Assembly (NCBI RefSeq): GCF_009497655.1
Contig: NZ_CP023317.1
Location: forward strand, 2,261,501-2,325,500
DNA from: Priestia megaterium
GTDB taxonomy: Bacteria; Bacillota; Bacilli; Bacillales; Bacillaceae_H
DNA: 64,000 nt
Direction: 5' to 3'
Shown: positions 35,938 to 59,756 of the stretch, piece after piece
Layout of the letters: each line of letters opens with the position of its first letter
How positions within the stretch are numbered: position 1 is the first letter of the stretch
The notes under the pieces: generated by a model
What the model was told of the DNA's origin: nothing
Database searches by the model: none
What the model saw: the letters and a program-made list of their open reading frames with translations, nothing else
Position numbers and translations under genes: made by a program

Positions 35938-36201
35938 ATGGAACGTATTGAAACGGGAGAGATTTTTACAATTTTAGATGAAAATGATCAAGAGCAAGAT
36001 ATTGAAGTGCTTGGAAAAATGACGATTGAAGGCCACGATTATATTGCCGTTGCGTTTGTGGAAGAAGTTTTAATTGAAACAGAAGAAGAAATTGATGTTT
36101 TCTTTTTAAAAATTGAAGATGATGGTGAATGGTCTTCAATTGAAGATGATGATGAGTTTGAAAAAGTATCAGCCGTATTTGAGGAAATGACATCCGCGTA
36201 A
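35938..36201 (+). CDS. DUF1292 family protein
   Basis: 87 residues, strongly acidic (many Glu/Asp), matching the DUF1292 pattern: FTILDENDQEQDIEVLGKM, YIAVAFVEE and DVFFLKIEDDGEW near residue 60, with an acidic DDDEFEKVSAVFEEM tail. ATG 35938 follows AGGAGGGAATACG. Members are small cytoplasmic proteins of Firmicutes (YrzB-like) with unknown function; they usually sit near yrrK/yrvJ, while this copy stands alone. Confidence 0.8.
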   Translation: MERIETGEIFTILDENDQEQDIEVLGKMTIEGHDYIAVAFVEEVLIETEEEIDVFFLKIEDDGEWSSIEDDDEFEKVSAVFEEMTSA

Positions 36202-36231
36202 AAAGAGAGGTTACAACCTCTCTTTTTTTAT
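36201..36231 (+). terminator. Intrinsic terminator
   Basis: AAAAAGAGAGGTT-ACA-ACCTCTCTTTTT with T tract after the DUF1292 gene. Confidence 0.9.
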
Positions 36232-36352: not shown

Positions 36353-37597
36353 GTGTATTTTTCTTACTCTGACAAAGTAGTGAAGCTGCAAAAAGAATTG
36401 AGCTCTTTTATGGAAGAGCATATTTATCCAAATGAACAGCTATACGAACAACAGCTGAATGAACAGCCATCTAGATGGTCAGCTGTTCCTCCAATCATGG
36501 AAGAGTTAAAAGAAAAAGCAAAGCGAGCTGGGCTATGGAACTTATTTTTGCCAGAAAGCGAATACGGAGCAGGTCTAACAAATGTAGAATACGCTCCTCT
36601 TTGCGAAATTATGGGCCGTTCTATTATTGGACCAGAAGCTTTTAACTGCGGAGCTCCTGACACTGGCAATATGGAAGTGCTGGTTCGATACGGAACGCCT
36701 GAACAGAAAGAAAAATGGCTAAAGCCTCTGTTAAATGGAGACATTCGCTCCTGCTTTTCTATGACAGAACCGGATATAGGTTCTTCTGATGCCACAAACA
36801 TTCAGTGCAGTATTGTAAGAGAAGGCGATGAATATGTAATCAACGGAAGAAAATGGTGGTCTTCAGGTGCGGGAGATCCTCGCTGCAAAATTGCTATTGT
36901 CATGGGAAAAAGCGATTTTAACGCATCTAAATATGAACAGCAGTCTATGATTCTAGTTCCATTAAATACTCCGGGAGTTAAAATTGAACGAATGCTGCCA
37001 GTCTTTGGATACGATCACGCTCCTCATGGACATGCTGAAATTCATTATGACAATGTGCGTGTGCCAGCATCCAATATGCTTTTAGGCGAAGGAAAAGGGT
37101 TTGCTATTGCTCAAGGTAGATTAGGGCCTGGACGTATTCATCACTGCATGCGTCTAATAGGAGCAGCTGAAAGAGCGCTCGAAGAATTATGTAAGCGTAT
37201 TCAAAGTCGTTCTACATTTAATAAGTTGCTTTCTCAGCAAGGGGTTATTCAAGAATGGGTGGCAGAATCGCGTATTGAAATTGAGCAAGCTCGCTTATTA
37301 ACATTAAAAGCTGCTTATATGATGGACACAGTTGGAAATAAAAAAGCGCGGAAAGAAATTGCCATGATTAAAGTAATAGCTCCTGCTATGGCTTTAAAAG
37401 TCATTGATCGTGCCATTCAAGCATTTGGAGCAGCAGGTGTTTCAGAAGACACGCCGCTTGCGGCACTTTGGGCAAATGCCCGCACTCTTCGCCTCGCTGA
37501 TGGTCCAGACGAAGTGCACAAAGCACAGCTTGCAAGACTTGAGCTAAAATCCTATCAAGAACAGGAGGCAACCTATGCACATAAAGGATCTGTTTGA
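36353..37597 (+). CDS. Acyl-CoA dehydrogenase, ACAD11-like
   Basis: 414 residues from GTG 36353 after GAGGGAC. Acyl-CoA dehydrogenase landmarks: [14 protein letters not shown] near 131-145 and a C-terminal [19 protein letters not shown]. Several segments are characteristic of the dehydrogenase half of ACAD11/ACAD10 rather than general beta-oxidation enzymes: [36 protein letters not shown] and [14 protein letters not shown]. In ACAD10/11 this half acts on phosphorylated 4-hydroxyacyl-CoA made by a fused kinase; here the matching kinase is the separate gene at 42827. First gene of a three-gene operon, overlapping the next by 23 bp. Confidence 0.88.
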
Positions 37598-38348
37598 TTT
37601 AACTGGAAAAACAGCTATTATTACCGGAGGAGGCAGAGGATTAGGAGAGCAAATGGCAGAAGGGCTTGCAGAGGCAGGGGCAAATATTGTTCTATGCTCA
37701 AGAAAAAAAGAAGCATGTCAGCAAGTGGCTGATCGATTGGCCACCGTGGGCGTAAAAACCCTCGCTTTAGCATGTGACATCAGTCAGCCTGAAGATATTA
37801 AAAATGTCGTGGATCAAACGATTGAAACATTTGGACGCATCGATATCTTAATTAACAACAGCGGAGCTACGTGGGGAGCTTCGGCTGAAGAAATGCCTCT
37901 TGAAGCATGGCAAAAAGTGATGAATATTAATGTGACGGGCACGTTTTTAATGTCACAAGAAGCTGGAAAAGAAATGATTAAACAAAAAGCTGGTAAGATT
38001 ATTAACATTGCTTCAATTGCGGGTCTTGGAGGAACGGACCCTCAGTATATGGATACAATCGGGTACAACACGAGTAAAGGAGCGGTCATTACGTTCACGA
38101 AAGATTTAGCTGTCAAATGGGGACAGCATAATATTCAAGTTAATGCAATTGCGCCGGGATTTTTTCCTACTAAAATGTCAGGTGCGATTATGGAACAAGG
38201 AAAAGATTATTTTCTAAGTCAAACCCCTTTAAAACGCTTTGGCTCCGAAGCTGATTTAAAAGGAGCGGCTGTTTTTCTTGCTTCTGCAGCGTCTAATTAT
38301 ATTACGGGCGATATTCTGACAGTAGACGGTGGAGTTCATGCTATGTGA
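37575..38348 (+). CDS. SDR family oxidoreductase
   Basis: 257 residues. TGGGRGLG near 18-25 binds the cofactor, NNSG (usual NNAG) near 92-95, SIAGLGG serine region near 146 and YNTSKGA near 162-168 supply Ser-Tyr-Lys. The gluconate-5-dehydrogenase-like profile ([17 protein letters not shown] type start) is common among hydroxyacyl or polyol reductases. The start ATG follows CAGGAGGCAACCT and lies inside the end of the dehydrogenase gene, so the two are coupled. A role in reducing or oxidising a keto/hydroxyacyl intermediate is inferred from context. Confidence 0.85.
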
Positions 38349-38367: not shown

Positions 38368-39984
38368 ATGGAAGACGTTAAAAAATGGTTTACACCTTAT
38401 CCAGAAGCCTACACTCATGACATTCACATCGAAGATATTTCACTATTTGATATGCTGAAAGAAACAGCCGAACGTTATCCTGCTCACACAGCCACGCGCA
38501 TGTATCAGCATACGTTAACGTACCAGGAGCTGTACCACTCAGTTCGCGTATTTGCAGGAGCACTGCAGAAAAAAGGGATTAAAAAAGGAGATCGTGTAGC
38601 AATTATGCTGCCAAATTGTCCGCAATATATAATAAGCTATTTTGGCATTATAGCAGCGGGCGGCATTGTCACTCAGGTCAACCCCATGCTTGTCGAACAA
38701 GAACTAAAGCATATTTTACACGATTCCGGCGCAAAAAAAATAATTCTACTCGATGATTTTTATACGAGACTTCAAGAGATAAGGAATCGTGTTGAGATAG
38801 AAGAAGCGATAACCGTCAGCTTGCAAAAACCTTTTGTTCCTACATCACCAGACCTTTCCTTCTTAGATTTTCTAACCATTAAGCATGAATTTCATCAGCC
38901 GGTCATCCATCCAGCACACGATATTGCTGTTCTTCAGTATACGGGAGGAACGACCGGACCATCTAAAGGTGCGATGCTTACACATACAAACATTTACACA
39001 AACGCAGTTCAATCATACGAAATATTTAAGCATGATATTGAATTAGGAAAAGAAAAATGCTTAACCGTTATTCCATTGTTTCACGTATTTGGCATGACTT
39101 CCTGTATGCATTTATCAATTCTTTGCGGAAATGAAATATTGCTATTGCCGCGTTTTGATTTAGAAGAAGTACTAAATACAATCAAAAAAGAGCAGCCTAG
39201 TATTTTTCCTGGAGTGCCAACTATGTATGTCGCGATTACCAATCATCCGCGGGCAGAAGAATACAATATCGAAAGTATTCGCATCTGCAACAGCGGCAGT
39301 GCGCCAATGCCTGTTGAGCTGATGAAAGAGTTCGAACGAAAAACGGGTGCTAAAGTGTTAGAAGGGTACGGCTTATCAGAAGCGTCCCCCGTGACGCATT
39401 GCAACCTGCCGTTTTGTGAACGAAAGCCAGGCACAGTCGGACTTGGCGTTCCGCAAACTGCTTATAAAATTGTAGACGTGGCTACAGGAACAAAAGAACT
39501 GCCAAGAGGAGAGCTCGGAGAAATAGTGATTAAAGGCCCTCAAGTTATGAAGGGCTATTGGAATCAGCCTGAAGAAACAGCTCACGCGCTTAGAAACGGC
39601 TGGCTGTACACAGGAGATATTGGACAGATAGACGAAGATGGGTATTTATCCATTGTTGATCGCAAAAAAGATATGATTATTGCGAGTGGTTTTAATGTGT
39701 ATCCTCGAGATATTGAAGAAGTTTTATATGAGCACAGCCACATTAAAGAAGCCGTTGTCATTGGCGTTCCGCATCCTTACAGAGGAGAAACAATTAAAGC
39801 GATTTTAGTAGTGAAAGAAGGAAAATCTCTTTCTGAAGAAGAGCTTACTTCTTATTGTCGACATCATCTTGCAGCTTACAAAATTCCGCGAATCTTTGAG
39901 TTTCGCGCTGAGCTTCCTAAGACCAATGTAGGGAAAATTTTACGAAGAGCACTGCGAGAAGAAGTGGTGAAAGAAACGATGTAA
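38368..39984 (+). CDS. Long-chain fatty acid-CoA ligase-type AMP-binding enzyme
   Basis: 538 residues. ANL superfamily motifs in order: YTGGTTGPSKGAMLTH near 191-206 (P-loop), EGYGLSEASPVTH near 332, WLYTGDIGQIDEDGYL near 411-426, VDRKKDMIIASGFNVYPRDIEE near 429 in two parts, and the C-terminal catalytic Lys in LPKTNVGKILRRAL. It activates carboxylic acids to acyl-CoA via acyl-AMP. It starts 19 bp after the SDR and ends the first operon of the island, so it probably loads the pathway's substrate acid. Confidence 0.9.
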   Translation: MEDVKKWFTPYPEAYTHDIHIEDISLFDMLKETAERYPAHTATRMYQHTLTYQELYHSVRVFAGALQKKGIKKGDRVAIMLPNCPQYIISYFGIIAAGGIVTQVNPMLVEQELKHILHDSGAKKIILLDDFYTRLQEIRNRVEIEEAITVSLQKPFVPTSPDLSFLDFLTIKHEFHQPVIHPAHDIAVLQYTGGTTGPSKGAMLTHTNIYTNAVQSYEIFKHDIELGKEKCLTVIPLFHVFGMTSCMHLSILCGNEILLLPRFDLEEVLNTIKKEQPSIFPGVPTMYVAITNHPRAEEYNIESIRICNSGSAPMPVELMKEFERKTGAKVLEGYGLSEASPVTHCNLPFCERKPGTVGLGVPQTAYKIVDVATGTKELPRGELGEIVIKGPQVMKGYWNQPEETAHALRNGWLYTGDIGQIDEDGYLSIVDRKKDMIIASGFNVYPRDIEEVLYEHSHIKEAVVIGVPHPYRGETIKAILVVKEGKSLSEEELTSYCRHHLAAYKIPRIFEFRAELPKTNVGKILRRALREEVVKETM

Positions 39985-40039: not shown

Positions 40040-40074
40040 TTGTGAAAATGAGAAAAGACAGAGAGGGTTTGACG

Positions 40075-40641
40075 ATGAAAGATTTGATGATGGAACGAAG
40101 CATTCAGCTTTTTGCTCAAAAAGGTTTCAAAGAAACGTCTATTCAAGATATTGTAAATGAATTAAACGTCACAAAAGGAACGTTTTATTATTATTTTAAA
40201 AGCAAGCAAGAGCTTTTAATGGATATTCACCTTCAATATATTGAAAGATTAATAGAAAACCAAGAGACGATTCTTGCAGATAAGACAATATCTTATCCTG
40301 AAAAGCTGCACAGCATTATTTTTAAACTTGTTCATGATATTGAGAAAGAAGGTCTTCGAGCTAAAGTGTTTTTTCGAGAGATGCGTCATTTGAGTGAAGA
40401 ACACTTAGAACAAATCATTCCAAAGCGCGATCGTTTTAAAGAAAACGTACAGGAAATTATTGAAAAAGGAATGGAAGCAGGGCAGTTCCGTTCAGATTTG
40501 CCTTCAGATATCGTGACGCTAGGCATATTAGGAATGACAAATTGGAGCTATTTTTGGTTTCAGCCGGATGGTGAAAAGTCAGATCGAGAAGTTGCGGCTA
40601 TTTTTTATAAGATGTTAATGAAAGGTATTCAGTCACAGTAG
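40075..40641 (+). CDS. TetR/AcrR-family transcriptional regulator
   Basis: 188 residues from ATG 40075 (GAGAGGG upstream); an earlier in-frame ATG lacks a site. Residues 1-50 are a TetR HTH: RSIQLFAQKGFKETSIQDI, VNELNVTKGTFYYYFKSK, ELLMDI. The C-terminal ligand domain is of FadR/LiuR-like length. It sits between the two halves of the acyl-CoA island, so it is the likely local repressor, probably released by an acyl-CoA. The palindrome at 36313 is a candidate target. Confidence 0.88.
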   Translation: MKDLMMERSIQLFAQKGFKETSIQDIVNELNVTKGTFYYYFKSKQELLMDIHLQYIERLIENQETILADKTISYPEKLHSIIFKLVHDIEKEGLRAKVFFREMRHLSEEHLEQIIPKRDRFKENVQEIIEKGMEAGQFRSDLPSDIVTLGILGMTNWSYFWFQPDGEKSDREVAAIFYKMLMKGIQSQ

Positions 40642-40721: not shown

Positions 40722-41606
40722 ATGAATAGTAAAGATATACAGCGTATTGCTGTCATTGGCGCAGGACAAATGGGACATCAAATTGGTATGCTTTGTGCAC
40801 TTGGAGGATATGAAACAATTATTCAAGATATGAATGAACAATCACTCATAGAGGCAAAAAATAAGCTGGAAGCAATTATAGACAAGTGGGTTCACAAAGG
40901 CAAAATTTCCTCTGATGCTAAAGAAGCCGCATTTCAAAGGTTGTCTTTTACAAGCACATTAAAGGAAGCGGTTTCAAGTGCTGATTTTGTGATTGAAGCT
41001 GTTGTAGAAAAGTTAGATGTAAAACAAAGCGTCTTTAAAGAAATAGATGAGTACGCACCAAGTCACGCCATTTTAGCATCGAATAGTTCAACAATTGTTA
41101 ACTCGCTTATTGCAAGTGCAACAAACCGTCCAGAGCAAATCGTTAACATGCATTTCTTTTTTCCTCCTCTTGTAATGGACTGCGTAGAAGTTGTGATGAG
41201 TGAAAAGACAAGTGAACAAACAGCTCAAACGACAATGGAAGTTTGCAAGCAAATTAATCGCACAGCAGTCCTTCTGAAAAAAGAAATCTCAGGTTTTATT
41301 GCCAATCGAATTTTAGGAGCGCTGCAAAAAGAAGCCGTTTTCCTTTACGAAAATGGATACGCAGATTTTGAAGACATTGATACGATTTGCAAAAAAGCGC
41401 TCAATCACCCGATCGGTCCTTTTGAATTGATGGATCTCTCAGGAATTGACGTCGGATATTTTGTGATGCAGCAGCGCTATAGCGAAACAGGGGACCCTGA
41501 GGACAAGCCAGCTGCGTGCATAGAAGAAAAAGTTCAAAAAGGCGAGCTTGGACGCAAAACAGGAAAAGGTTTTTACACATACCACACACAGGGAGTGAAG
41601 CAATGA
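40722..41606 (+). CDS. 3-hydroxyacyl-CoA dehydrogenase (3-hydroxybutyryl-CoA type)
   Basis: 294 residues after AAAAGGAGGCTATAAC. NAD-binding motif VIGAGQMGHQIGMLCA near residues 12-27 (GxGxxG), catalytic HFFFPPLVMDCVEV near 143-156 (His, here H-F-F-F), FIANRILGALQKEA near 192 and a helical dimerisation domain with GPFELMDLSGIDVGY. It oxidises L-3-hydroxyacyl-CoA to 3-oxoacyl-CoA in beta-oxidation. First gene of an eight-to-nine-gene operon; its stop overlaps the ATG of the enoyl-CoA hydratase (ATGA). Confidence 0.9.
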   Translation: MNSKDIQRIAVIGAGQMGHQIGMLCALGGYETIIQDMNEQSLIEAKNKLEAIIDKWVHKGKISSDAKEAAFQRLSFTSTLKEAVSSADFVIEAVVEKLDVKQSVFKEIDEYAPSHAILASNSSTIVNSLIASATNRPEQIVNMHFFFPPLVMDCVEVVMSEKTSEQTAQTTMEVCKQINRTAVLLKKEISGFIANRILGALQKEAVFLYENGYADFEDIDTICKKALNHPIGPFELMDLSGIDVGYFVMQQRYSETGDPEDKPAACIEEKVQKGELGRKTGKGFYTYHTQGVKQ

Positions 41607-42385
41607 TGAAAAAATTTGTACGTATTGAAAAAGAAGAGAAAACAGCTATTGTAACCATTGATAATCCGCCTTTAAATGTAATGAGCCAGGCTGTTGTGCA
41701 GCAGCTTGAAGAAACGTATGAAGAGCTTAGTAAAGATCCTGATGTCATTACAATCATTTTAACGGGAGCGGGCGACCGGGCGTTTATGGCTGGAGCTGAT
41801 ATTAAAGAATTTCCACAGCTAATGGGACAAAGCGGTATTAAAGAAGAGTTTATGAAAACCCATCGTGTTTTGCAAAAACTTGAAAACATTGAAAAACCAA
41901 CAATTGTCGTGTTAAACGGTTTAACGTTTGGGGGAGGGTGCGAACTTTCACTAACCGCTGATATACGCATTGCCGAAGAACATGCTCAAATCGGTCTTCC
42001 GGAAGTGAAGCTCGGATTGTTTCCCGGAGGCGGCGGAACTCAGCGTCTTCCGCGCGTAATCGGCGCATCTAAAGCTAAAGAATGGATGTTTGCCGGCAGT
42101 CCTGTTTCGGCGGAAGAAGCACTTCATGCAGGCTTTGCCAATCATGTAACGCCTAAAGGAAAAGGGCTCGAAAAAGCAAAAGAGCTGGCTAAGAAATTTA
42201 ACCGTCACTCTCTTCCGTCACTTTCTCGAATTAAGGCAGCGGTAAACGAAGGAATGAATCGTACACTATCTGAAGGTCTTGAACTTGAGGCAGAGCTGTT
42301 TGAAGAAGTCTTTCAAACAGAAGATATTAAAGAAGGAGTATCAGCATTTTTTGAAAAGCGTCCCGCTGTTTTTTCACATAAGTAA
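41603..42385 (+). CDS. Enoyl-CoA hydratase/isomerase
   Basis: 260 residues from ATG 41603 (GGGAG seven bases upstream). Crotonase-fold motifs: AGAGDRAFMAGADIKEF near 56-72 (oxyanion hole), NGLTFGGGCELSLTADIRIA near 100-118, and GLPEVKLGLFPGGGGTQRLPR near 130 in which E and E-like positions (PEVKLG, PGGGGTQ) fit hydratases. Second gene of the operon, coupled to the dehydrogenase by ATGA overlap. It hydrates trans-2-enoyl-CoA. Confidence 0.88.
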   Translation: MMKKFVRIEKEEKTAIVTIDNPPLNVMSQAVVQQLEETYEELSKDPDVITIILTGAGDRAFMAGADIKEFPQLMGQSGIKEEFMKTHRVLQKLENIEKPTIVVLNGLTFGGGCELSLTADIRIAEEHAQIGLPEVKLGLFPGGGGTQRLPRVIGASKAKEWMFAGSPVSAEEALHAGFANHVTPKGKGLEKAKELAKKFNRHSLPSLSRIKAAVNEGMNRTLSEGLELEAELFEEVFQTEDIKEGVSAFFEKRPAVFSHK

Positions 42386-42399
42386 AGGAGGAGAAAACC

Positions 42400-42801
42400 A
42401 TGTATGAAACACAGGTCAAAGTGCGTTTTTGCGAAACAGACGCACTCGGTCACATTAACAATACGAGCTATTTCATTTATTTAGAAGAGGCACGCATTGC
42501 TTTTTTTGAAGAAATGGGAGCATCCATGCATACAGAAAAGTGGGAGTATATTTTAGCGTCTACTAAATGTGATTTTGTTGCGCAAGGATATTTTAATCAA
42601 GTGTTAATGATTAAAACCTTTGTATCTAATGTCGGCAATAAAAGCTTTACAATTGGTCATGAAATTACCGACAGCAAGACGGGATCGCTGATTGCCAAAG
42701 GAGAAGCTGTCATCGTGTACTTTGATTTTGATGCACAAAAAAGCGTTTCTATTCCAGCGGATATTAAGCAGTTTTTGATGAATTATAAAGTAGCTGTTTA
42801 A
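42400..42801 (+). CDS. Acyl-CoA thioesterase (4HBT hotdog family)
   Basis: 133 residues, the single-hotdog length. The 4-hydroxybenzoyl-CoA-thioesterase motif FCETDALGHINNTSYFIYLEEARIAFF begins at residue 8, with catalytic Asp in ETDALGHINN. It hydrolyses short or medium acyl-CoA thioesters and may release product or trapped CoA. Start ATG 14 bp after the previous stop, preceded by AAAGGAGGAGAAAACC. Confidence 0.87.
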   Translation: MYETQVKVRFCETDALGHINNTSYFIYLEEARIAFFEEMGASMHTEKWEYILASTKCDFVAQGYFNQVLMIKTFVSNVGNKSFTIGHEITDSKTGSLIAKGEAVIVYFDFDAQKSVSIPADIKQFLMNYKVAV

Positions 42802-42826: not shown

Positions 42827-43885
42827 ATGTCACAAATCATTCCCGTACGAAAAGGAGAGGAATTAAACACGGAAAAACTGCATCAGTTTCTCCGTGTTTC
42901 GATTCTTGATTTACCTAAAGAGCCTCTTGTAATCAAGCAATTTGGATCAGGTGCGTCCAATTTAACCTACGCTCTTTCAGTCGGAGAGTGGGAGGCGGTG
43001 TTGAGACGCCCGCCATTTGGGCCAGTTGCGCCAAAAGCGCATGACATGGAAAGAGAATACAAGATTTTATCTGTTTTATCGAAGTCGTTCCCTCTCGCTC
43101 CTAGGCCGTATGTGTTTTGTGAAGATGAGACGGTGGTCGGAAAATCCTTTTTTTTAATGGAGCGAAAGCACGGTGTTCTCATCGACACAGCGTTTCCAAA
43201 AGAAGTGAAAGAAACGAGCCAACTTTGCCGTCGTATTTCAGAACAAATGGTGGATGTCCTTGTTCAGCTTCATGATGTTCCTTATAAAGGCACGCTCCTT
43301 GAAGAAATCAGCAAGCCTGAAGGTTTTTTAGAACGTCAAGTACACGGCTGGATTCATCGTTATGAAAAATCAAAAACAAGTGACATACCGGAAGTAGAAG
43401 CACTAAAGAAATGGTTGACCACACACATCCCCACTTCACAGCATCCAACCATTATTCACTATGATTATAAGCTTAACAATACGTTATTTTCACCGGATGG
43501 AAATAAAATTGTAGGATTATTTGACTGGGAAATGACAACCGTTGGAGACCCGCTTGCTGATTTGGGAGTGGCGATGAGCTATTGGATGGAAGACAGCGAC
43601 CCTGAACTTTTAAAAAGAGGATTGGGGAACCCACCTGTTACTGTGCAAAAAAGCTTTTATTCCCGTCGAGATTTTGTGGAAGCGTATGCTAAAAAAAGCG
43701 GACGAGATGTGTCACACATTGACTTTTACCTGAAGTTTGCGTACTTCAAACTTGCTGTCATTTGTCAGCAAATTTATTACCGTTATAAAAAAGGCCAAAC
43801 AAATGACAAACGGTTTTCACAATTTGGAGAGTATGTAAAAACGCTGATTATTCATGCTCTGCATACAGAACGCAGGCATATATGA
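42827..43885 (+). CDS. APH-family kinase, ACAD10/11 kinase-domain and LvaA-like
   Basis: 352 residues with an aminoglycoside-phosphotransferase fold: FGSGASNLTYAL near 42-53 (nucleotide loop), VLRRPPFGP near 60, IIHYDYKLNNTLF near 208-220 (Brenner motif, catalytic Asp), GLFDWEMTTVGDPLADLG near 228-245 (metal-binding Asp) and YYRYKKGQ near the end. The LRRPP and WEM...GDPLADL details are those of the ACAD10/11 N-terminal kinase and of LvaA, which phosphorylate the 4-hydroxyl of hydroxyacyl-CoAs. Its stop overlaps the next ATG (ATGA), coupling it to a ComB-type phosphatase. Confidence 0.85.
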   Translation: MSQIIPVRKGEELNTEKLHQFLRVSILDLPKEPLVIKQFGSGASNLTYALSVGEWEAVLRRPPFGPVAPKAHDMEREYKILSVLSKSFPLAPRPYVFCEDETVVGKSFFLMERKHGVLIDTAFPKEVKETSQLCRRISEQMVDVLVQLHDVPYKGTLLEEISKPEGFLERQVHGWIHRYEKSKTSDIPEVEALKKWLTTHIPTSQHPTIIHYDYKLNNTLFSPDGNKIVGLFDWEMTTVGDPLADLGVAMSYWMEDSDPELLKRGLGNPPVTVQKSFYSRRDFVEAYAKKSGRDVSHIDFYLKFAYFKLAVICQQIYYRYKKGQTNDKRFSQFGEYVKTLIIHALHTERRHI

Positions 43886-44625
43886 AAAGAAAAGTTCACG
43901 TAATACTCAAAAAAGAAGAGCTTCTTGCCAAAAAGCTAGAAGGAAAAACGGTCGTTATATTTGACATCTTATTGGCTACTTCAACAATTGCGGCTGCTTT
44001 ACAACAAGGAGCAATAGAGGTTATTCCCGTAAAAAACGAAGAAGAAGCGCGCAATAAAGCAAAAACGTATAAGCCTGATGAAATTGCGCTTGTAGGCGAA
44101 TATAGAGGGAAAACGATTGAAGGCTTTTTTGATCCAAGCCCCAGCACGATAAAGCAGCATGTTCAAGATAAAACGGTTATTTTGTCCACCACTAATGGAA
44201 CGGTGGCCATTCATAACGCTGAAAAAGCAAAACATGTCTATGCAGCTTCACTGTTAAACGGAGAAGCGGTTGCCAGTGCTGTTTGTCAACCAAGTCAAGA
44301 TGAAACTGTTTTATTGGTTTGTTCAGGTTCATCCGATCGCTTCTGTCTAGAAGATTTATATGGAGCGGGGTACTTTATAAGCTGTCTTCTGCAACTAAAA
44401 ACATTTTATTTAACGGATGCTGCAAAAGCCGCACTGCTTTTGTATAAGGCTTATGAGCATTCATCTCTTGAAATATTGAAACACTCAGCCGTAGGAGAAA
44501 TGCTCACTCAGTATGGCTTTCTAGACGAAATTGGCTTTGTAAGCCGGAAAAACGTCTACTCTGTAGTTCCTAAGGTAGTGAAGAAAAAGCTAGTAAACGG
44601 GGAGGAAATGATATGTCTGAAATGA
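43882..44625 (+). CDS. ComB-family (2-phosphosulfolactate phosphatase-like) protein
   Basis: 247 residues, normal ComB length. Family features: VVIFDILLATSTIAAAL near 23-39 (usual DVLRATTT), VGEYRGKTIEGFFDPSPS near 72-89 (usual GGERGG...FDLGNSP), ILSTTNGTVAI near 100-110 and AASLLNGEAVA near 120. ComB hydrolyses 2-phospho-3-sulfolactate in archaeal coenzyme M synthesis; many bacterial homologues have unknown substrates. Here it is translationally coupled to the APH-type kinase upstream and overlaps the dehydrogenase downstream by 13 bp. Deviations at the R of LRATTT and in the GGERGG loop suggest a different substrate. Confidence 0.8.
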   Translation: MKRKVHVILKKEELLAKKLEGKTVVIFDILLATSTIAAALQQGAIEVIPVKNEEEARNKAKTYKPDEIALVGEYRGKTIEGFFDPSPSTIKQHVQDKTVILSTTNGTVAIHNAEKAKHVYAASLLNGEAVASAVCQPSQDETVLLVCSGSSDRFCLEDLYGAGYFISCLLQLKTFYLTDAAKAALLLYKAYEHSSLEILKHSAVGEMLTQYGFLDEIGFVSRKNVYSVVPKVVKKKLVNGEEMICLK

Positions 44626-46391
44626 AAACCGAAGCAAAAGGCGGATCATTTTTACTTAAAAAAACATCTGCGCAGCACGTCTATACATCTGAAGACTTAA
44701 CGGATGAGCATCGTATGATCGCTCAGACAGCAAAGCAGTTTATTGAAAAAGAAGTCGACCCTTACCACAGTGACATTGAGCAGCAGGATTTTAATAAAGT
44801 AGTAGAATTGATGCATAAAGCAGGCGAGCTTGGACTTCTTGCTCACAGTATTCCAGAAGCATATGGAGGACTAGGTCTTGATAAAGTAAGCAAAGGACTC
44901 GTCAGTGAAATCATCGGCCGGACAAGCGGATATGGAGTCGCTCATTCTAATCATACATGCATTGCGACACTTCCTATTACGTATTTTGGTACCAAAAAGC
45001 AAAAAGAAAAATACTTGCCCAAATTGGCAAGCGGTGAATATATTGGCGCCTACTGTTTGACAGAGCCAGAAGCTGGTTCTGATGCTCTTGCAGCCCAAAC
45101 AAAAGCCGTATTAAATCCTGAAAAAACGCATTATGTATTAAATGGAACGAAGCAGTACATTACCAATGCTGCCTTTTCAGATACGTTCATCACATATGCA
45201 AAAGTAGACGGAGAACATTTTACCGCTTTTATTGTAGAAAAAGATTTTGAAGGACTGTCTCTCGGGCCAGAAGAAAAGAAAATGGGGATTAAAGGGTCGT
45301 CTACTCGCCCGGTTATTTATGAAGATTGTTTAGTACCCGTAGAAAACGTACTTGGACAAGTAGGAAGAGGTCACTTGATTGCGCTGAACGTCTTAAACCT
45401 TGGACGTTTTAACTTAGGTTCTGCATGTATGGGCGCAGCGAAATATGCGTTTGAACTTGCTTTAGGTTATACAAAAGAACGCAAGCAGTTTAAAACAGCT
45501 ATTGCGGAATTTAACGCTTCAAAAGAAAAAATAGCAAAAATGGCGGCTCGTATTTTTGCATCTGAATCTATCCAGTACCGTACAGCTGGTTTACTAGAAG
45601 AGGCGCTTGGTGGACTATATGAAAGTGAAAATCATAAGTTAGTAGCTAAACAGCTGGCTGAATTTGCAATGGAATGTTCAGTGTGTAAAGTGTATGGATC
45701 GGAAACTCTTGATTTAATTGCCGATGAATCGCTGCAGCTTCATGGCGGAGCAGGATTTATTCAAGAATATAAAATCGAACAAGTATACCGTGACTCACGC
45801 ATCAATCGTATTTTTGAAGGTACAAATGAAATCAACCGCCTTTTGCTTCCAACTCAGCTTCTAAAAAAAGCAGGCAAAGGAGAAATAGAGCTGAACAAAC
45901 GAGTAGAACATGCCGTTAGTGAATTGATGAGCGGTCAGTGGGAAATATCTTCAAATGAACTTCTAGCACGAGAAAAGCAGGCTGTTATTACAACAAGGCA
46001 TTTATTTCTTGCATTGCTAGGAACAGCATTCCAAACGTTTCAGACAAATCTAGCGCAAGAACAAGAAACGCTGATGAAATTAGCAGAAATTGCTATTGGG
46101 CTATTCGCTATGGAGTCATCTGTGCTGCGCGTGGAAAAAGCTGTAACCAGAAATGGAGAAGAAAAAGAAACGTTAAAAAGCAAACTCACAGCAACAGTTG
46201 TTAGTGAAACGCTCTTTGAAATTGAAAAGCAGGCTCGACAATTAATAAACGGGATGTTAACGGGTGAAAAACACCGACAGTACCGCACAATTCTTGGAAA
46301 ATGGATGAATGATTTGCAAAGTGAAGGAGAGTTCATGCGCAATCGAGACATCGCCCGTGAATTTATCGACAGCGAACGATATGTTGTATAA
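44613..46391 (+). CDS. Acyl-CoA dehydrogenase, FadE/VLCAD-like
   Basis: 592 residues, longer than the 380-residue ACADs because of a C-terminal helical extension, as in B. subtilis FadE-type and VLCAD enzymes. Motifs: AYCLTEPEAGSDALAA near 145-160, YITNAAFSDTFI near 182, GIKGSSTRPVIYEDCLVP near 223, the GRFNLGSACMGAAK helix near 264 and VYRDSRINRIFEGTNEINRLLL near 390-411 (catalytic Glu in the FEGTNEI region). ATG 44613 follows GGGGAGGAAATGAT inside the ComB gene. It forms the 2,3-double bond of acyl-CoAs using FAD. Confidence 0.9.
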   Translation: MSEMKTEAKGGSFLLKKTSAQHVYTSEDLTDEHRMIAQTAKQFIEKEVDPYHSDIEQQDFNKVVELMHKAGELGLLAHSIPEAYGGLGLDKVSKGLVSEIIGRTSGYGVAHSNHTCIATLPITYFGTKKQKEKYLPKLASGEYIGAYCLTEPEAGSDALAAQTKAVLNPEKTHYVLNGTKQYITNAAFSDTFITYAKVDGEHFTAFIVEKDFEGLSLGPEEKKMGIKGSSTRPVIYEDCLVPVENVLGQVGRGHLIALNVLNLGRFNLGSACMGAAKYAFELALGYTKERKQFKTAIAEFNASKEKIAKMAARIFASESIQYRTAGLLEEALGGLYESENHKLVAKQLAEFAMECSVCKVYGSETLDLIADESLQLHGGAGFIQEYKIEQVYRDSRINRIFEGTNEINRLLLPTQLLKKAGKGEIELNKRVEHAVSELMSGQWEISSNELLAREKQAVITTRHLFLALLGTAFQTFQTNLAQEQETLMKLAEIAIGLFAMESSVLRVEKAVTRNGEEKETLKSKLTATVVSETLFEIEKQARQLINGMLTGEKHRQYRTILGKWMNDLQSEGEFMRNRDIAREFIDSERYVV

Positions 46392-46402
46392 GGAGGGATA
46401 TT

Positions 46403-47167
46403 ATGATGCGTTTTGAAGGGCAAATAGCTGTTATTACAGGAGCTGGAAGCGGCATTGGAGAAGCGACCGCTCAAAGAATGGCGAAAGAAGGCGCTCGCGT
46501 CATTCTTGTGGGGCGAACGAAAGAAAAACTAATACAGGCTGCATCCGCTATTGACACACGGTGTGAACGAAAATGTACAGATATTTTCCCAGCTGACGTA
46601 ACGAAAGAAGAAGACGTCAAAGAGCTTGCTGAGTTTATAAAAGAAAAGTACGGACAAATTCATTTATTAATTAATAACGCAGGCGGATCTGTTAATTCCA
46701 CAATCAAAGAAACAACGCTTGAACAGTGGAAACAGGTGCAGGACGTCAATTTAACAAGCGTATTTCTTGTAACAAAACATTTGATTCCTTTTTTAACTGA
46801 AGAAATAGCAGAAAATCGCTCTATTGTTAACATCGCTTCTCTTTCAGGACATAAAGCAGGTGCGCAAATTCCCCACTATAGCGCTGCTAAAGCTGCTTTA
46901 ATCAACTTTACAAAAGCAATGGCATTTGAATTAGCACCTCACGGAATCAGAGTAAACTCTGTGTCTCCTGGATTCGTAGAAACACCTTTAACACAGCCTG
47001 GACTTGAAAATGAGCGCTTCACTAAGGCAATCGAAAAAAATACGGCTTTAAAACGTGTAGGTAAACCAGATGAAATTGCAAATGTTATTGCTTTTGTAGC
47101 GTCTAAAGAGGCATCGTATATGACGGGAAGTGATTTATTAGTAGACGGCGGGTGGCTTATCGTTTAA
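46403..47167 (+). CDS. SDR family oxidoreductase
   Basis: 254 residues. TGAGSGIG near 11-18, NNAGGS near 92, SLSGHK region near 147, YSAAKAA near 161-167 (Tyr/Lys), and SPGFVETP near 190. FabG-like general architecture. R39 after beta-2 (VGRTKEK) hints at NADP(H). ATG 46403 follows AAGGAGGGATATT 11 bp after the dehydrogenase. It may handle an oxo/hydroxyacyl intermediate of the island; the substrate is not evident. Confidence 0.85.
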   Translation: MMRFEGQIAVITGAGSGIGEATAQRMAKEGARVILVGRTKEKLIQAASAIDTRCERKCTDIFPADVTKEEDVKELAEFIKEKYGQIHLLINNAGGSVNSTIKETTLEQWKQVQDVNLTSVFLVTKHLIPFLTEEIAENRSIVNIASLSGHKAGAQIPHYSAAKAALINFTKAMAFELAPHGIRVNSVSPGFVETPLTQPGLENERFTKAIEKNTALKRVGKPDEIANVIAFVASKEASYMTGSDLLVDGGWLIV

Positions 47168-47196
47168 TACAAAGCAAAGAGGAGGAAGTCGAAATT

Positions 47197-47970
47197 ATGA
47201 GTGATTTAGTAGTAGAAAAGCAGGGGACTATTTTATCTTTAACGTTAAATCGACCGGATCGTTTAAATGCATTCAGTGAGGAAATGATTGAAAAGTTAAC
47301 AGCTGAAATAAAACAGGCACAAAGCGATGAGTCTATTAAAGTGGTTATATTAAATGGAGCGGGGCGCTCGTTTTCTGCCGGAGGCGATGTGAAAACGATG
47401 GGCCAAGCATCGGGAGCTGATGTTTATGAACATATCGGCCGTTTAAATGAATGTATTTTAGCGATGCAAAATCTAGAGAAGCCAATTATTTCAGCAGTTC
47501 ATGGGTTTGCAGCAGGAGCTGCTTTTAATTTAGCTCTCGCTTCTGACTTTATCATCGCATCACAAGAAAGCCGATTTGTATTAAGCTTTTCTCAAGTGGG
47601 ATTGATTTCAGATGGAGGAGGTCTTTACTTTCTCACAAAGGTCGTTGGCCCCCACAAAGCTAAAGAACTGCTATTTTTAGCAGAGCCTCTGGATGCCGAT
47701 ACGGCTTACAAAGCCGGTTTTTTGAACCGTGTAGTGCCGTTAGATCAGTTGAAAGATGAGGTTACGTCTTTTGCAAGCCGTTTATCACAAGGGCCAACGA
47801 AAGCGTACGGAAAAATGAAAAAAATCGTCAACGATTCATTCCATTTAACGCTAGAACAAGTGCTTGAACAAGAAAGGCTAACGCAAGTTCTTATGGTAGA
47901 AACGAGGGATCATCAAGAAGGAATATCTGCATTTAAAGAAAAAAGAAAGCCACTATTTCAAGGGAAATAA
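47197..47970 (+). CDS. Enoyl-CoA hydratase/isomerase family protein
   Basis: 257 residues from ATG 47197 (GAGGAGGAAGTC upstream); the longer frame overlaps the SDR and lacks a site. Crotonase motifs: NGAGRSFSAGGDVKTM near 56-71 and HGFAAGAAFNLALASDFIIA near 100-118; SQVGLISDGGGLYFLTK near 132-148 has D in place of the second catalytic Glu region, as in PaaG-like isomerases. It could isomerise or hydrate the product of the second dehydrogenase. Confidence 0.87.
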   Translation: MSDLVVEKQGTILSLTLNRPDRLNAFSEEMIEKLTAEIKQAQSDESIKVVILNGAGRSFSAGGDVKTMGQASGADVYEHIGRLNECILAMQNLEKPIISAVHGFAAGAAFNLALASDFIIASQESRFVLSFSQVGLISDGGGLYFLTKVVGPHKAKELLFLAEPLDADTAYKAGFLNRVVPLDQLKDEVTSFASRLSQGPTKAYGKMKKIVNDSFHLTLEQVLEQERLTQVLMVETRDHQEGISAFKEKRKPLFQGK

Positions 47971-47986
47971 GAGGGGGATATAAAAG

Positions 47987-48970
47987 ATGAAAGCTATTCA
48001 ATTCACGCAGTATGGAGGGCCTGATGTTCTGCAAGTTATCGATATTGCACGCCCTGTACCTAAAAAGAAAGATGTGCTCATTAAAGTTGCGGCAATTGGC
48101 GTTAATTATGCCGACGCTGCGCGGCGCGAAGGAGCATATGTAGTCGAAACGCCGCTGCCTTTTATTCCAGGCTCTGAAGTAGCAGGCGAAGTGGTTGAAG
48201 TAGGCGAGGATGTACAAGGGATAAAAGTAGGTACAAAAGTCGTGACACTGCTGGGATCTAATCGAGCAACAGGATACGCTGAGTACACGCTGGCAGATTC
48301 AAGAGGCCTTATTCCGTTGCCGGAGAATGTGGATTTAACACAGGCCGTTGCTTTGCCTCTTCAAGGACTAACGGCTTATCATATTTTAAAAACAATGGGT
48401 CGCCTTGAAAAAGGAGAAATCGTCATCGTTCATGCAGCAGCAGGCGGCGTCGGAACCTTAGCTGTTCAGCTTGCGAAAATTTTTGGAGCTGGAAAAGTTA
48501 TTGCTACAGCGAGCTCTAAAGAAAAGCTTGAGCTTGCAAAAAATCTTGGAGCCGACGAAGTGATTAACTATACAGAAACAGGCTGGGAAAAACGGATTTT
48601 AGAAGTAACAGAAGGAAAAGGAGCCGATATTATTTTAGAAATGGTAGGAGGGCATATATTCTATGAATCTCTTCAATGTCTTGCACCATTTGGACGCCTC
48701 GTTTTTTACGGAATGGCTAGCGGAAAATCTGTAAAGTTTAACCCTGCTCGCCTGATGGAAAAAAATCAGTCGGTTCTCGGCTTTTTCTTACCTCAAATGA
48801 TGGCAAAACCAGCACTTTATCAGCAAAGCCTGCATGAGCTATTAAACTACGTGAATTCCGGTCAGTTAAAATTAATGCTGGGCGGTACATTTTCACTTGA
48901 AGAAGCAGCAGATGTACATCGTCTGCTTCAAGGAAGAAAAACGACCGGAAAATTAGTGTTAGTTCCTTAA
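47987..48970 (+). CDS. Quinone oxidoreductase / zinc-independent medium-chain dehydrogenase
   Basis: 327 residues. MDR superfamily: N-terminal GroES-like domain (MKAIQFTQYGGPDVL, IPGSEVAGEVVEVG near 62-75), NADPH-binding VHAAAGGVGTLAVQLAKIFGA near 147-167 in two parts, and no zinc-ligand cysteine pattern, as in QOR/crotonyl-CoA-reductase relatives. These reduce quinones or conjugated enones. Last gene of the island; a terminator follows at once. Confidence 0.85.
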   Translation: MKAIQFTQYGGPDVLQVIDIARPVPKKKDVLIKVAAIGVNYADAARREGAYVVETPLPFIPGSEVAGEVVEVGEDVQGIKVGTKVVTLLGSNRATGYAEYTLADSRGLIPLPENVDLTQAVALPLQGLTAYHILKTMGRLEKGEIVIVHAAAGGVGTLAVQLAKIFGAGKVIATASSKEKLELAKNLGADEVINYTETGWEKRILEVTEGKGADIILEMVGGHIFYESLQCLAPFGRLVFYGMASGKSVKFNPARLMEKNQSVLGFFLPQMMAKPALYQQSLHELLNYVNSGQLKLMLGGTFSLEEAADVHRLLQGRKTTGKLVLVP

Positions 48971-49010: not shown

Positions 49011-49033
49011 AGTTTAAAAAATTGGCTTTCGCC

Positions 49034-49068
49034 TGCCAAATTTTTAAAAACCGCTTAATAATTTGGCA
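49034..49068. promoter_or_regulatory. Inverted repeat, candidate enhancer site for a sigma-54 activator
   Basis: TGCCAAATT-N17-AATTTGGCA, a perfect 9-bp inverted repeat 43-77 bp upstream of the sigma-54 promoter. A further AATTGGC half-like copy lies at 49020-49026. Position and symmetry suit an enhancer-binding protein; the protein is not encoded in the window. Confidence 0.55.
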
Positions 49069-51057: not shown

Positions 51058-51714
51058 ATGAACAAAATCATCACGCGCGAAGAAGCAGTAGGAAAAATAA
51101 CTGATGGCGCACGCATTATGGTAGGTGGATTTGGTCTTGTAGGAAGCCCGCTTAGTCTAATTGAGGCGATTGCCAAATCAAACCTTAAAGATTTAGAGAT
51201 TATTAGTAATAACCTCGGTGAACCTGGAAAAGGATTGGGTATATTGGTTCAAAGAAAACAAGTAAAAAAAGCTATAGGTTCGTATTTCACTTCCAATCCT
51301 GAAGTTGTGCATGCCTATCAACAACAAGAACTTCAAGTGGAGCTTATCCCGCAAGGAACAATGTCCGAGGCTATTAGAGCAGGAGGTGCGGGCATTGGAG
51401 GATTTTACACGCCTGTGAGCGTAGGGACTCAGCTCGCTGAAGGAAAAGAAGAACGAGTATTAAAAGGAAAGAAATATGTTTTGCAAGAATCGCTGCACGC
51501 AGATGTAGCGCTTATAAAAGCTAAAAAAGCAGACCGACTCGGAAATCTTATTTACAGCAAATCAGCAAGAAACTTTAATCCAATGATGGCAACGGCCGCT
51601 GATATCGTGATTGCTGAAGTAGAAGAAGTGGTTGAAGTTGGACAAATTTCTCCTGAAGAAATTATCACTCCTCATTTATACGTTACTTATATCGTAGTGA
51701 AAGGAGAAAAATAA
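51058..51714 (+). CDS. yodS: 3-oxoacid CoA-transferase subunit A (YodS-like)
   Basis: 218 residues after AAAGGAGGAAACAAA. Alpha-subunit motifs of class I CoA-transferases: GARIMVGGFGLVGSP near 17-31 and GAGIGGFYTPVSVGT near 110-124. It pairs with the beta subunit 1 bp downstream. In the B. subtilis kamA-yodPQRST cluster the corresponding pair is YodS/YodR; here it probably activates the 3-oxo-6-aminohexanoate-type acid derived from beta-lysine. ScoA/AtoD-type acetoacetate transferase is the alternative. The symbol rests on context. Confidence 0.85.
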   Translation: MNKIITREEAVGKITDGARIMVGGFGLVGSPLSLIEAIAKSNLKDLEIISNNLGEPGKGLGILVQRKQVKKAIGSYFTSNPEVVHAYQQQELQVELIPQGTMSEAIRAGGAGIGGFYTPVSVGTQLAEGKEERVLKGKKYVLQESLHADVALIKAKKADRLGNLIYSKSARNFNPMMATAADIVIAEVEEVVEVGQISPEEIITPHLYVTYIVVKGEK

Positions 51715-51715
51715 G

Positions 51716-52378
51716 ATGAACGTCAAACAATATATTGCTGGGCGCGCTGCAAAAGAGCTTTGTCAAGGAGATGTAGTGAACTTAGGGATAGGGATTCCTA
51801 CTTTGGTTGCTAATTATATTTCACCCGATGTTCACGTGTTTTTACATTCAGAAAACGGAATTCTCGGCGTTGGCCCTACTCCTGAAGAAACCTATATAGA
51901 TCCAGAGCTTGTGAATGCTGGGAAGCTTCCCGTCACGGTCTTGGAAGGTGCCTCATTTTTTAACAGCGCTGATTCTTTTGCGATGATACGCGGAGGTCAT
52001 GTGAATGTATCCATTCTTGGAGTGCTTCAAGTAGATGAAGCAGGGCGAATTGCGAACTGGGCTGTCCCTGGGAAAAGTGTTCTTGGCGTAGGAGGAGCAA
52101 TGGATTTATTAGAAGGATCGAAAAAAGTGATTGTGACGACTCTTCATACGAATAGTCAAGGAGAGTCAAAGCTAGTTAGGAATTTAACCTATCCGCTTAC
52201 TTCAGAGCGACGAGTCGATATGATTATTACGGAATTAGCTGTCTTTTCGGTAACCCATCTTGGTCTTGAACTTCTTGAAACAGCTCCGGGTGTTTCTTTA
52301 GAGGAAGTAAAACAAAAAACAGAGGCTTCTTTTCATGTTTCTAAATTATTTAATAAAAACAATGAGGTGACGGCATAA
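51716..52378 (+). CDS. yodR: 3-oxoacid CoA-transferase subunit B (YodR-like)
   Basis: 220 residues. Catalytic glutamate E46 in HSENGILG, preceded by NLGIGIPTLVANY near 22-34; GGHVNVSILGVLQVDEAGRIANW near 104 and VGGAMDL near 140 are standard beta-subunit motifs. The glutamate carries CoA as a thioester intermediate. Start ATG immediately after the alpha subunit (GAAAAATAAG); its stop overlaps the thiolase start (TAATG), so all three are coupled. Confidence 0.87.
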   Translation: MNVKQYIAGRAAKELCQGDVVNLGIGIPTLVANYISPDVHVFLHSENGILGVGPTPEETYIDPELVNAGKLPVTVLEGASFFNSADSFAMIRGGHVNVSILGVLQVDEAGRIANWAVPGKSVLGVGGAMDLLEGSKKVIVTTLHTNSQGESKLVRNLTYPLTSERRVDMIITELAVFSVTHLGLELLETAPGVSLEEVKQKTEASFHVSKLFNKNNEVTA

Positions 52379-53559
52379 TGGCAGTGATTGTAAATGCATT
52401 TCGAACCCCTATTGGAAAGTTTGGCGGTTCGCTTGCAGATACGCTTCCAGAAGAACTAGTCTCTCTTGTGATGAAAAACAATTTGTCTTCAGCGGGATAT
52501 ACTTCAGAGATTGTTGATGAAATCATTGTCGGACAGACGAAACAAAGCGCTCATGCTCCTAATATAGCGAGAGTAGCCGGGCTGAGAGCTCAATTCTCTG
52601 AACGTATTCCAGCTTATACCGTGCACCGCCAGTGCGGTTCAGGCATGCAGGCTGTAATGAATGGAGCTATGTCCATTTTATCAGGTCAAGCCGAAGTGGT
52701 ATTAGCCGGAGGAGCGGAAAGCATGTCTCAAGCACCGCACTATACGGTAGGCACTCGTTTTGGTTTTCACGTTGGTGATTTAACACTCTATGACTCTAAT
52801 ACAGAAAGTCAGCCAAAATCACAGCCTGAAACGCTATACGGAACGTTTACAATGGGACAGACGGCGGAGTGGCTTGCTGAAAAGTATAGCATTAGCCGTA
52901 CGGAGCAGGACGAGTTTGCTTTTTATAGTCAGGAAAAAGCTAGGCGGGCTATAGAACTTGATTTGTTCGAAGAAGAAATTATACCGGTTCCTGTAAAAGA
53001 AGGAATGAGGCATTTTGCAACAGATGAATTTCCTCGTCTTACTAGCAAAGAAAAGCTTGGTACGCTTAAGCCCGTTTTTCAAAGAAATGGAACGGTGACA
53101 GCCGGAAATTCATCCGGAAGAAACGATGGCGCTTCGATGCTGCTGATGATGTCGGAAGAAAAAGCTGAGCATCTCGGATTAACACCTATGGCAAAGATTG
53201 TGTCGTTTGCCGCAGCCGGCGTCTCTCCAAAGGAAATGGGAATTGGCCCCGTTTCTGCTTCGCAAATTGCTTTAACTAAAGCCGGTTTAAGCTTAAATGA
53301 TATGGACTTAATTGAATTAAACGAAGCATTTGCCGCCCAAAGTATTGCTTGCTTAAGAGAATGGGACATCACATCAGAGAAAGTGAATGTAAACGGAGGA
53401 GCAATTGCGCTTGGACATCCTTTAGGCTGCTCCGGGGCAAGAATCATCACAACTCTGTGTCATGAGCTCCACAAGCAAAAAAGACGATACGGCCTTGCTA
53501 CTATTTGCGTTGCAGGAGGGTTAGGAATGGCGATGGTGGTGGAAAGATGGACGAAATAA
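52378..53559 (+). CDS. Acetyl-CoA acetyltransferase (thiolase)
   Basis: 393 residues. Active-site cysteine C86 in HRQCGSGMQA, GGAESMSQAPH near 112-122, ELNEAFAAQ near 312, histidine in GGAIALGHPLGCSGAR near 341-356, and the second cysteine in TICVAGGLGMA near 378 (usual CxGGGxG, here CVAGGLG). In this cluster it most likely cleaves the 3-oxoacyl-CoA formed by the CoA-transferase to acetyl-CoA plus a C4 aminoacyl or acetamidoacyl-CoA. Such a thiolase is absent from the B. subtilis yodTSRQP-kamA set. Confidence 0.88.
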   Translation: MAVIVNAFRTPIGKFGGSLADTLPEELVSLVMKNNLSSAGYTSEIVDEIIVGQTKQSAHAPNIARVAGLRAQFSERIPAYTVHRQCGSGMQAVMNGAMSILSGQAEVVLAGGAESMSQAPHYTVGTRFGFHVGDLTLYDSNTESQPKSQPETLYGTFTMGQTAEWLAEKYSISRTEQDEFAFYSQEKARRAIELDLFEEEIIPVPVKEGMRHFATDEFPRLTSKEKLGTLKPVFQRNGTVTAGNSSGRNDGASMLLMMSEEKAEHLGLTPMAKIVSFAAAGVSPKEMGIGPVSASQIALTKAGLSLNDMDLIELNEAFAAQSIACLREWDITSEKVNVNGGAIALGHPLGCSGARIITTLCHELHKQKRRYGLATICVAGGLGMAMVVERWTK

Positions 53560-56211: not shown

Positions 56212-56239
56212 CTTTTTAAATGAAAAGGAGGGTAACGAT

Positions 56240-57697: not shown

Positions 57698-57726
57698 TCT
57701 CGCACCTTAGCGAAAAGGAGGAGCAC

Positions 57727-59714: not shown

Positions 59715-59756
59715 TAGAACATCTATTCAAAAAATGAACCTTGGAGGGAATATAAA

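Follow-up and report, generated by a model that had tools for sequence, protein, structure and literature searches.

A ComB-fold putative phosphatase linked to an LvaA/ACAD11-type kinase in a beta-oxidation operon of Priestia megaterium

The window analysed here is a stretch of 64,000 nucleotides from the Priestia megaterium contig NZ_CP023317.1. Between positions 36353 and 48970 it holds a run of genes on one strand, separated by short gaps or overlapping, with terminator-like hairpins at both ends. The features, in window coordinates, are as follows.

36200–36227, + strand: terminator-like hairpin with a 12-bp stem, just 5' of the gene run (consensus scan)
36353–37597, + strand: ACAD11/LvaC-type acyl-CoA dehydrogenase, 414 aa (PDB matches to ACAD11 2wbi and 8v3u; R-x7-H-x2-R motif)
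37575–38348, + strand: SDR oxidoreductase, a possible 4-oxoacyl reductase (Pfam adh_short_C2, 8.2e-62)
38368–39984, + strand: acyl-CoA ligase of FadD type (Pfam AMP-binding, 8.6e-95)
40042–40641, + strand: TetR-family regulator, scanned from 40078 (Pfam TetR_C_24, 4.1e-33; TetR_N, 4.9e-16)
40722–41606, + strand: 3-hydroxyacyl-CoA dehydrogenase (Pfam 3HCDH_N, 4.2e-57)
41600–42385, + strand: enoyl-CoA hydratase, its start chosen within the ORF 41516–42385 (Pfam ECH_1, 5.2e-61)
42400–42801, + strand: hot-dog thioesterase-like protein (Pfam 4HBT_2, 2.6e-22)
42827–43885, + strand: APH-fold kinase of the LvaA/ACAD11 kind, a predicted 4-hydroxyacyl-CoA kinase, 352 aa (Pfam APH, 4.5e-47; PDB matches)
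43882–44625, + strand: ComB-fold putative phosphatase of the kinase-linked ('beta') type with L31 and P85, 247 aa (Pfam PF04029, 3e-65; AlphaFold2; Foldseek; residue signature)
44613–46391, + strand: ordinary FadE acyl-CoA dehydrogenase (NCBIfam FadE, 818 bits against a cutoff of 600; PDB 3owa, 2e-174)
46403–47167, + strand: SDR oxidoreductase (Pfam adh_short_C2, 7.8e-70)
47152–47970, + strand: enoyl-CoA hydratase (Pfam ECH_1, 4.6e-60)
47987–48970, + strand: quinone oxidoreductase-like zinc-type dehydrogenase (Pfam ADH_zinc_N, 1.5e-37)
49022–49039, + strand (listed on both strands): terminator-like hairpin, just 3' of the gene run (consensus scan)

From this arrangement we infer that the genes form a single transcript, any single terminator-like site being weak evidence since the region contains 23 of them against 12.2 in shuffled sequence. 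An earlier note, made from the letters of this DNA, had described a kinase and a ComB-like phosphatase joined by an ATGA overlap within a beta-oxidation operon, the phosphatase in turn overlapping the next acyl-CoA dehydrogenase by 13 bp. The ORF coordinates bear out both overlaps: the kinase and ComB-like ORFs have the ATGA at 43882–43885 in common, and the FadE ORF starts at 44613, before the ComB-like ORF ends. The operon stands too, with the amendment that the dehydrogenase overlapping the ComB-like ORF is a FadE of the ordinary kind, the ACAD11-type partner of the kinase being the more distant 36353–37597 gene, which had gone unnamed.

The kinase had been assigned to the kind found in ACAD11 and LvaA, and solved structures support this. 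Its matches include 9o56 (9.8e-146), 3dxp (2.1e-45) and ACAD11 8v3v (4.2e-43); the assignment is judged against these rather than LvaA itself, and the best of them, 9o56, is named only as an aminoglycoside phosphotransferase. The protein also contains HYDYKLNN and FDWE, which we take to be kinase-like motifs. For the 36353–37597 dehydrogenase the best PDB matches are human ACAD11 2wbi (5.6e-146), 8v3u (1.2e-142) and a putative acyl-CoA dehydrogenase, 4hr3 (3.9e-142); beyond 4hr3 and the ACAD11 entries (2wbi, 8v3u/8v3v), the next sequence scores 7e-40. A motif search places R-x7-H-x2-R once in it, at R256, H264 and R267, and a hand count along the alignment sets these residues and one aspartate against R626, H634, R637 and the catalytic D753 of ACAD11, which the relevant passages of a paper dealing with ACAD10/11 tie to the phosphorylated substrate (PMC12440821). 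The same motif search finds no R-x7-H-x2-R in FadE, whose closest solved relative is 3owa. The 36353–37597 enzyme is thus expected to eliminate phosphate from 4-phosphoacyl-CoA.

Together, a kinase and ACAD11 are known to bring 4-hydroxyacyl-CoA into beta-oxidation by way of a 4-phospho intermediate (PMC12440821, PMC11342911, PMC6692424). Since an ACAD11/LvaC-type dehydrogenase and a kinase of the LvaA/ACAD11 kind are both present, the operon would contain both halves of this route, as far as substrates can be predicted from homology. It resembles LvaABCDE of Pseudomonas putida, where the kinase belongs to the same family and is clustered with a dehydrogenase of ACAD11/LvaC type, an SDR and a CoA ligase (same sources). 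The lva operon of P. putida KT2440, as described there, has the small LvaB and no phosphatase, whereas in the window the kinase adjoins a ComB-fold gene, the beta-oxidation genes make up a fuller set, and no separate ORF lies between the kinase and its neighbours.

Membership of the ComB-like protein in Pfam family 2-ph_phosp (PF04029) is clear, with 220 bits against a gathering score of 26.4 (E = 3e-65). An AlphaFold2 model built with 50 sequences has a pLDDT of 94.6 and a pTM of 0.92, and at E ≤ 0.001 a Foldseek search with it matches seven PDB chains, all from the ComB structures 1vr0 (4.5e-22), 2z0j and 2yyv. The protein nevertheless falls under the cutoff of all eight NCBIfam models listed for 2-phosphosulfolactate phosphatase; the best score is 175.6 bits against a cutoff of 330, and TIGR00298 gives 108.6 against 175.05.

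The earlier note had proposed a survey of whether this variant of ComB co-occurs with the kinase. We searched 397 genomes of the order with the two window proteins. ComB matched in 184 at E ≤ 0.001 and in 148 below 1e-30, and the kinase matched in 180 at 1e-40; both were present in 147 genomes, ComB alone in one, the kinase alone in 33 and neither in 216 (Fisher p = 9.5e-75, a value that overstates independence because many of the genomes, each counted separately, are related). Thus 147 of the 148 ComB genomes hold the kinase, and the sole exception, G125, has a broken ComB copy with an in-frame stop and K-N replacing E157-D158. The pairing is not due to chance. The figure of 33 rests on a single-sequence E-value cutoff and may be too high: 12 of these genomes have a weak ComB match and one member of the set, G035, scores 1.9e-42 with a profile. 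With the kinase lacking ComB in 33 of 180 genomes, ComB is accessory to it.

Gene order and gaps were taken from match coordinates for 150 listed ComB places. The kinase lies immediately upstream in 110; in nine it is farther off on the same contig and strand (within about 4–7 kb in eight), in seven it is elsewhere, and in 24 there is no kinase coordinate among the matches listed. The translational coupling to which the earlier note had drawn attention is not supported as a conserved feature. ATGA occurs in four of the 110 adjacent places, all in the window's own genus, the other 106 having gaps of 3–102 bp, and we have set it aside as lineage-specific. In a second scan of named genomes, 370 ComB relatives passed a tblastn check. 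Among the best 80 of these 370, 79 have Bacilli-type titles and one, possibly mislabelled, is from Chryseobacterium; a kinase ORF accompanies 76, lying directly upstream of 67, and ACAD11 accompanies 75. This set and that of 397 genomes are not independent, since some genomes are common to both.

The earlier note had pointed out altered ComB motifs, and both are present in the window protein, ILLATST at residues 29–35 and EYRGKT at 73–78. Here R31 and N85 of the solved ComBs are replaced by L31 and P85. We aligned 225 ComB sequences, namely the window protein, three from the PDB and 221 from the surveyed loci. Fragments included, 204 of them have L, F, M or I at position 31 and P85, together with D28, E73, N105, N126 and D158, which are shared with 1vr0, 2yyv, 2z0j and the ComA-linked copies. 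R31 occurs in 15, with N85 in 14 and H85 in one; the 15 comprise all three PDB chains, 10 copies linked to ComA, and L291 and L295, which come from other families in the class. Both residues are present in 3/3 PDB ComBs, while the ComA-linked copies have R31 in 10/10 and N85 in 9/10. The remainder are fragments or singletons, such as L285 (T85) and L294 (C31). When sequences from the loci are classed by residues 31 and 85, the kinase is found in the fetched region of 195 of 206 beta-type sequences against none of 12 of the R31 type. The motif changes are therefore type-wide, which supports the suggestion that they mark a different substrate class. Residues 31 and 85 are near D28 and E73 in the sequence, from which we infer that they line the substrate pocket.

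Family and fold could be taken to mean that the ComB-like protein is a genuine 2-phosphosulfolactate phosphatase present in the operon by happenstance. We give this almost no credence. The P. megaterium genome contains no match to ComA (PF02679), although the same search detects ComA in the B. subtilis and M. jannaschii controls. In the 397 genomes ComA accompanies 22 of 148 with beta-type ComB and 45 of 249 without it, so the two are not tied, and ComB was not detected in two of 12 ComA regions (L172, L181). Sulfolactate, at 5% of spore dry weight in B. subtilis, was reported absent from spores of B. megaterium (PMC517825), in line with the expectation that this organism does not make it; its presence in B. 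subtilis implies that Bacillus relatives do have ComA and ComB. Adding the replacement of R31 and N85, the different gene neighbours and the scores under the NCBIfam cutoffs, a sulfolactate role is unlikely for the protein, and we rejected it.

Variation among the loci narrows the association further. Six consist of the ACAD11, kinase and ComB genes alone between genes on the opposite strand, which ties ComB to these two partners and not to fatty-acid genes in general. In nine others ComB lies between the SDR and ACAD11 genes, still within the cluster. For 11 of the 206 beta-type sequences the region shows no kinase ORF. In one of these cases, L217, the locus runs into a contig end and tblastn gives a partial kinase; in two loci from Planococcus (L187, L193) ComB is accompanied by ACAD11 and a CoA ligase, but the kinase was not found, nor was it in L228. 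These 11, and the 33 of 180 kinase genomes that do without ComB, count against a phosphatase whose business is to oppose the kinase.

Conversely, 20 kinase loci chosen for missing ComB (L152–L171; G035 is outside this set) contain no ComB ORF in the regions viewed and retain ACAD11 and pathway genes in 20/20. The phosphatase is therefore not needed for the chemistry. This bears on the notion that it performs an obligate step, stripping phosphate in the forward conversion of 4-phosphoacyl-CoA, as has been proposed for a histidine phosphatase of Pseudomonas citronellolis (PMC6692424). Hydrolysis would merely give back 4-hydroxyacyl-CoA, and the LvaC/ACAD11 enzyme, whose key residues are kept in the 36353–37597 protein, itself eliminates phosphate (PMC11342911); with kinase and ACAD11 persisting where ComB is missing, we consider an obligate step very improbable.

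On a quick tree of 139 kinases, of which 119 are accompanied by ComB and 20 (those picked for missing it) are not, the state of ComB has to change 11 times, at least eight of these on starred branches, compared with a shuffled mean of 19.0. Since the ComB-less kinases are scattered tips, repeated loss of ComB is the simpler reading. The hot-dog gene does not track ComB, being present in 109 of 195 loci with it and 15 of 20 without, so that a coupling of ComB to the thioesterase was rejected; this also speaks against free acids released by the thioesterase as the main load. Replacement of ComB by a histidine phosphatase in kinase-only Bacillota was likewise considered, and a profile search of the locus ORFs (E ≤ 1e-3) in the Bacillota regions L044–L263 and L274–L297 found none.

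Some unrelated bacteria, on the other hand, seem to have placed a different phosphatase in the same position. In Pseudomonas citronellolis LA18T a histidine phosphatase gene adjoins the lvaA homologue, as the ComB gene adjoins the kinase in the window, and removal of phosphate from 4-phosphovaleryl-CoA was suggested as its function in 2019 (PMC6692424); the two phosphatases belong to different families. A survey of plasmids gave 248 records with a kinase match, and we viewed 14 loci drawn from 60 among the matches listed. One, from Cytobacillus (Bacillales), has the kinase but neither ComB nor a phosphatase in its annotation. In six of the 13 non-Bacillota loci a histidine phosphatase directly adjoins the kinase, and in seven it is absent there. 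The six, from Sulfitobacter M368, Deinococcus deserti (where the two genes overlap by 4 bp), Pseudoalteromonas, Ideonella, S. pontiacus and Azoarcus, can be aligned as a single set in which R-H-G and further positions do not vary, and all four of those scanned match Pfam His_Phos_1.

The Ideonella protein as query retrieved 46 plasmid records, 27 of them with a kinase on the same strand and no more than 125 bp away, a proportion biased upward because the query itself comes from a gene next to a kinase. Four are not adjacent by their listed coordinates, among them D. aetherius, with no kinase beside its histidine phosphatase, and 15 have no kinase coordinate among the matches listed; of three of these 15 viewed, one is adjacent and two are not. 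In D. psychrotolerans the kinase occurs without the histidine phosphatase, Deinococcus D7000 has both, and the Cupriavidus metallidurans region carries no annotation. ComB itself gave a single plasmid match, within a run of Calvin-cycle genes.

Animal proteins offer a third comparison. The kinase and dehydrogenase domains of ACAD10 (HAD-kinase-ACAD) and ACAD11 (kinase-ACAD) are related to the two window proteins, and ACAD10 has a phosphatase-type domain fused to them where the window has a separate ComB-fold protein. The earlier note's statement that a kinase/phosphatase pair is no part of described systems is therefore not supported, in view of both P. citronellolis (PMC6692424) and ACAD10 (PMC11342911); for ComB paired with an LvaA/ACAD11-type kinase in particular, we found no publication in the open-licence literature. 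The HAD domain of ACAD10 is described as restraining the kinase and limiting its output, with negligible phosphatase activity (PMC11342911), and so a non-catalytic regulatory role has a real precedent. By analogy the ComB-like protein might be an allosteric brake, binding the kinase or its product without real turnover, and its position immediately beside the kinase in 110 of the 150 listed places would suit this. However, the HAD domain has an incomplete DxD, having lost one aspartate (PMC11342911), whereas D28, E73, N105, N126 and D158 are retained in 204 of the 225 ComB sequences, and we regard a brake of this kind as distinctly unlikely.

The protein is, in our judgement, probably a metal-dependent phosphatase, catalytically active and working against the kinase, a repair or overflow valve for 4-phosphoacyl-CoA or the corresponding free acid. 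We favour this because the gene depends on the kinase and is dispensable for the pathway, the residues shared across the family are kept while two positions are changed, and counterparts of unrelated fold occur elsewhere. The evidence leans the same way as the earlier note, which had envisaged hydrolysis of a phospho-hydroxyacyl intermediate, proofreading or control of flux. The case may also draw on ACAD10, whose HAD domain limits the kinase, and on free 4-phosphohexanoate, which was seen in cells and read as the hydrolysed CoA adduct (PMC11342911).

On this model the operon would feed 4-hydroxy acids into beta-oxidation, beginning with CoA ligation. The APH kinase would phosphorylate the 4-hydroxyl, and the ACAD11-type dehydrogenase would eliminate the phosphate, with ordinary beta-oxidation to follow. 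The ComB-fold enzyme would hydrolyse any 4-phosphoacyl-CoA that the dehydrogenase refuses, whether as the wrong stereoisomer, the wrong chain or simply in excess, or else the free 4-phospho acid remaining once the thioester is cut. CoA and phosphate would thereby be kept out of a dead end.

The substrate might instead be some other compound arising in this catabolon. A promiscuous kinase could, for instance, produce 2-phospho or 3-phospho acids, or the target could be a phosphorylated by-product that has nothing to do with 4-hydroxyacyl-CoA. ComB enzymes are known for acting on phosphates of 2-hydroxy acids, which lends this some appeal, and the substrate of the Bacilli kinase is assigned by homology. 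Against it are the strict dependence on an LvaA/ACAD11-type kinase and the loci reduced to the trio, and ACAD10 in cells does not phosphorylate 5- or 6-hydroxyhexanoate (PMC11342911), which argues against broad regiochemistry. We hold such a substrate to be unlikely.

A wider proposition, which we put forward tentatively and with slightly less than even confidence, is that opposing phosphatases of unrelated folds were recruited several times over, each time independently, by organisms that use an LvaA/ACAD11-type kinase: ComB in Bacilli, histidine phosphatases in Deinococci, Pseudomonadota and some Streptomyces plasmids, and the HAD domain in animal ACAD10. The Bacillus protein would then be the first ComB-fold 4-phosphoacyl(-CoA) phosphatase, and hundreds of genes called 2-phosphosulfolactate phosphatase would be misnamed. 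If so, 4-hydroxy-acid catabolism by kinase and ACAD11 would gain an overlooked third component that clears the phospho-intermediate, a metabolite-repair need served by unrelated phosphatases, and the puzzling HAD domain of human ACAD10 would gain a bacterial model. ComB-fold enzymes would acquire a role beyond sulfolactate, PF04029 having been found in seven of 14 control genomes and ComA in two, and many Bacillota genes, to judge by the 370 relatives passing tblastn in one scan, would be given a corrected label.

In four more distant relatives (L288, L289, L290 and L292), the ComB-fold putative phosphatase gene lies upstream of the LvaA/ACAD11-type kinase gene, and the residues of the kinase-linked (beta) type, L, F, M or I at position 31 together with P85, are retained. 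The regions of L288, L289 and L290 also contain the ACAD11/LvaC-type dehydrogenase gene; that of L292 does not. Among 397 genomes of the order, only one (G125) holds a beta-type ComB without the kinase, and its copy is interrupted:
L142:7957-8790, G125: ComB gene broken by an in-frame stop, its E-D pair altered

A locus recorded under the title Chryseobacterium sp. ISL-80 (L210) has a Bacilli-type gene order despite its Bacteroidota name; this record could carry a wrong name or contaminating sequence.

Downstream of the operon, judging by its matches, a further gene run looks like a beta-lysine degradation cluster:
window 51058-61166: matches to 3-oxoacid CoA-transferase subunits, thiolase, aminotransferases, aldehyde dehydrogenase and lysine 2,3-aminomutase

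Two further arrangements were seen on plasmids. In other phyla, an LvaA/ACAD11-type kinase gene is directly adjoined by a histidine phosphatase family gene at L300, L301, L303, L309, L298 and L307. On Allomeiothermus silvanus pMESIL01, a run encoding RuBisCO small subunit, CbbX, phosphoribulokinase, Rpe and Fba ends in a phosphatase-annotated gene, whose product possibly acts on phosphoglycolate or a sugar phosphate.
L300:4480-6284, plasmid, other phylum: kinase and histidine phosphatase family gene pair
L319:3833-4567, pMESIL01: annotated 2-phosphosulfolactate phosphatase gene

A ComB-family protein (PF04029) was found in seven of the 14 control genomes, whereas ComA (PF02679), its sulfolactate-pathway partner, was found in only two, so that the majority of ComB-family members in that set need a different role.
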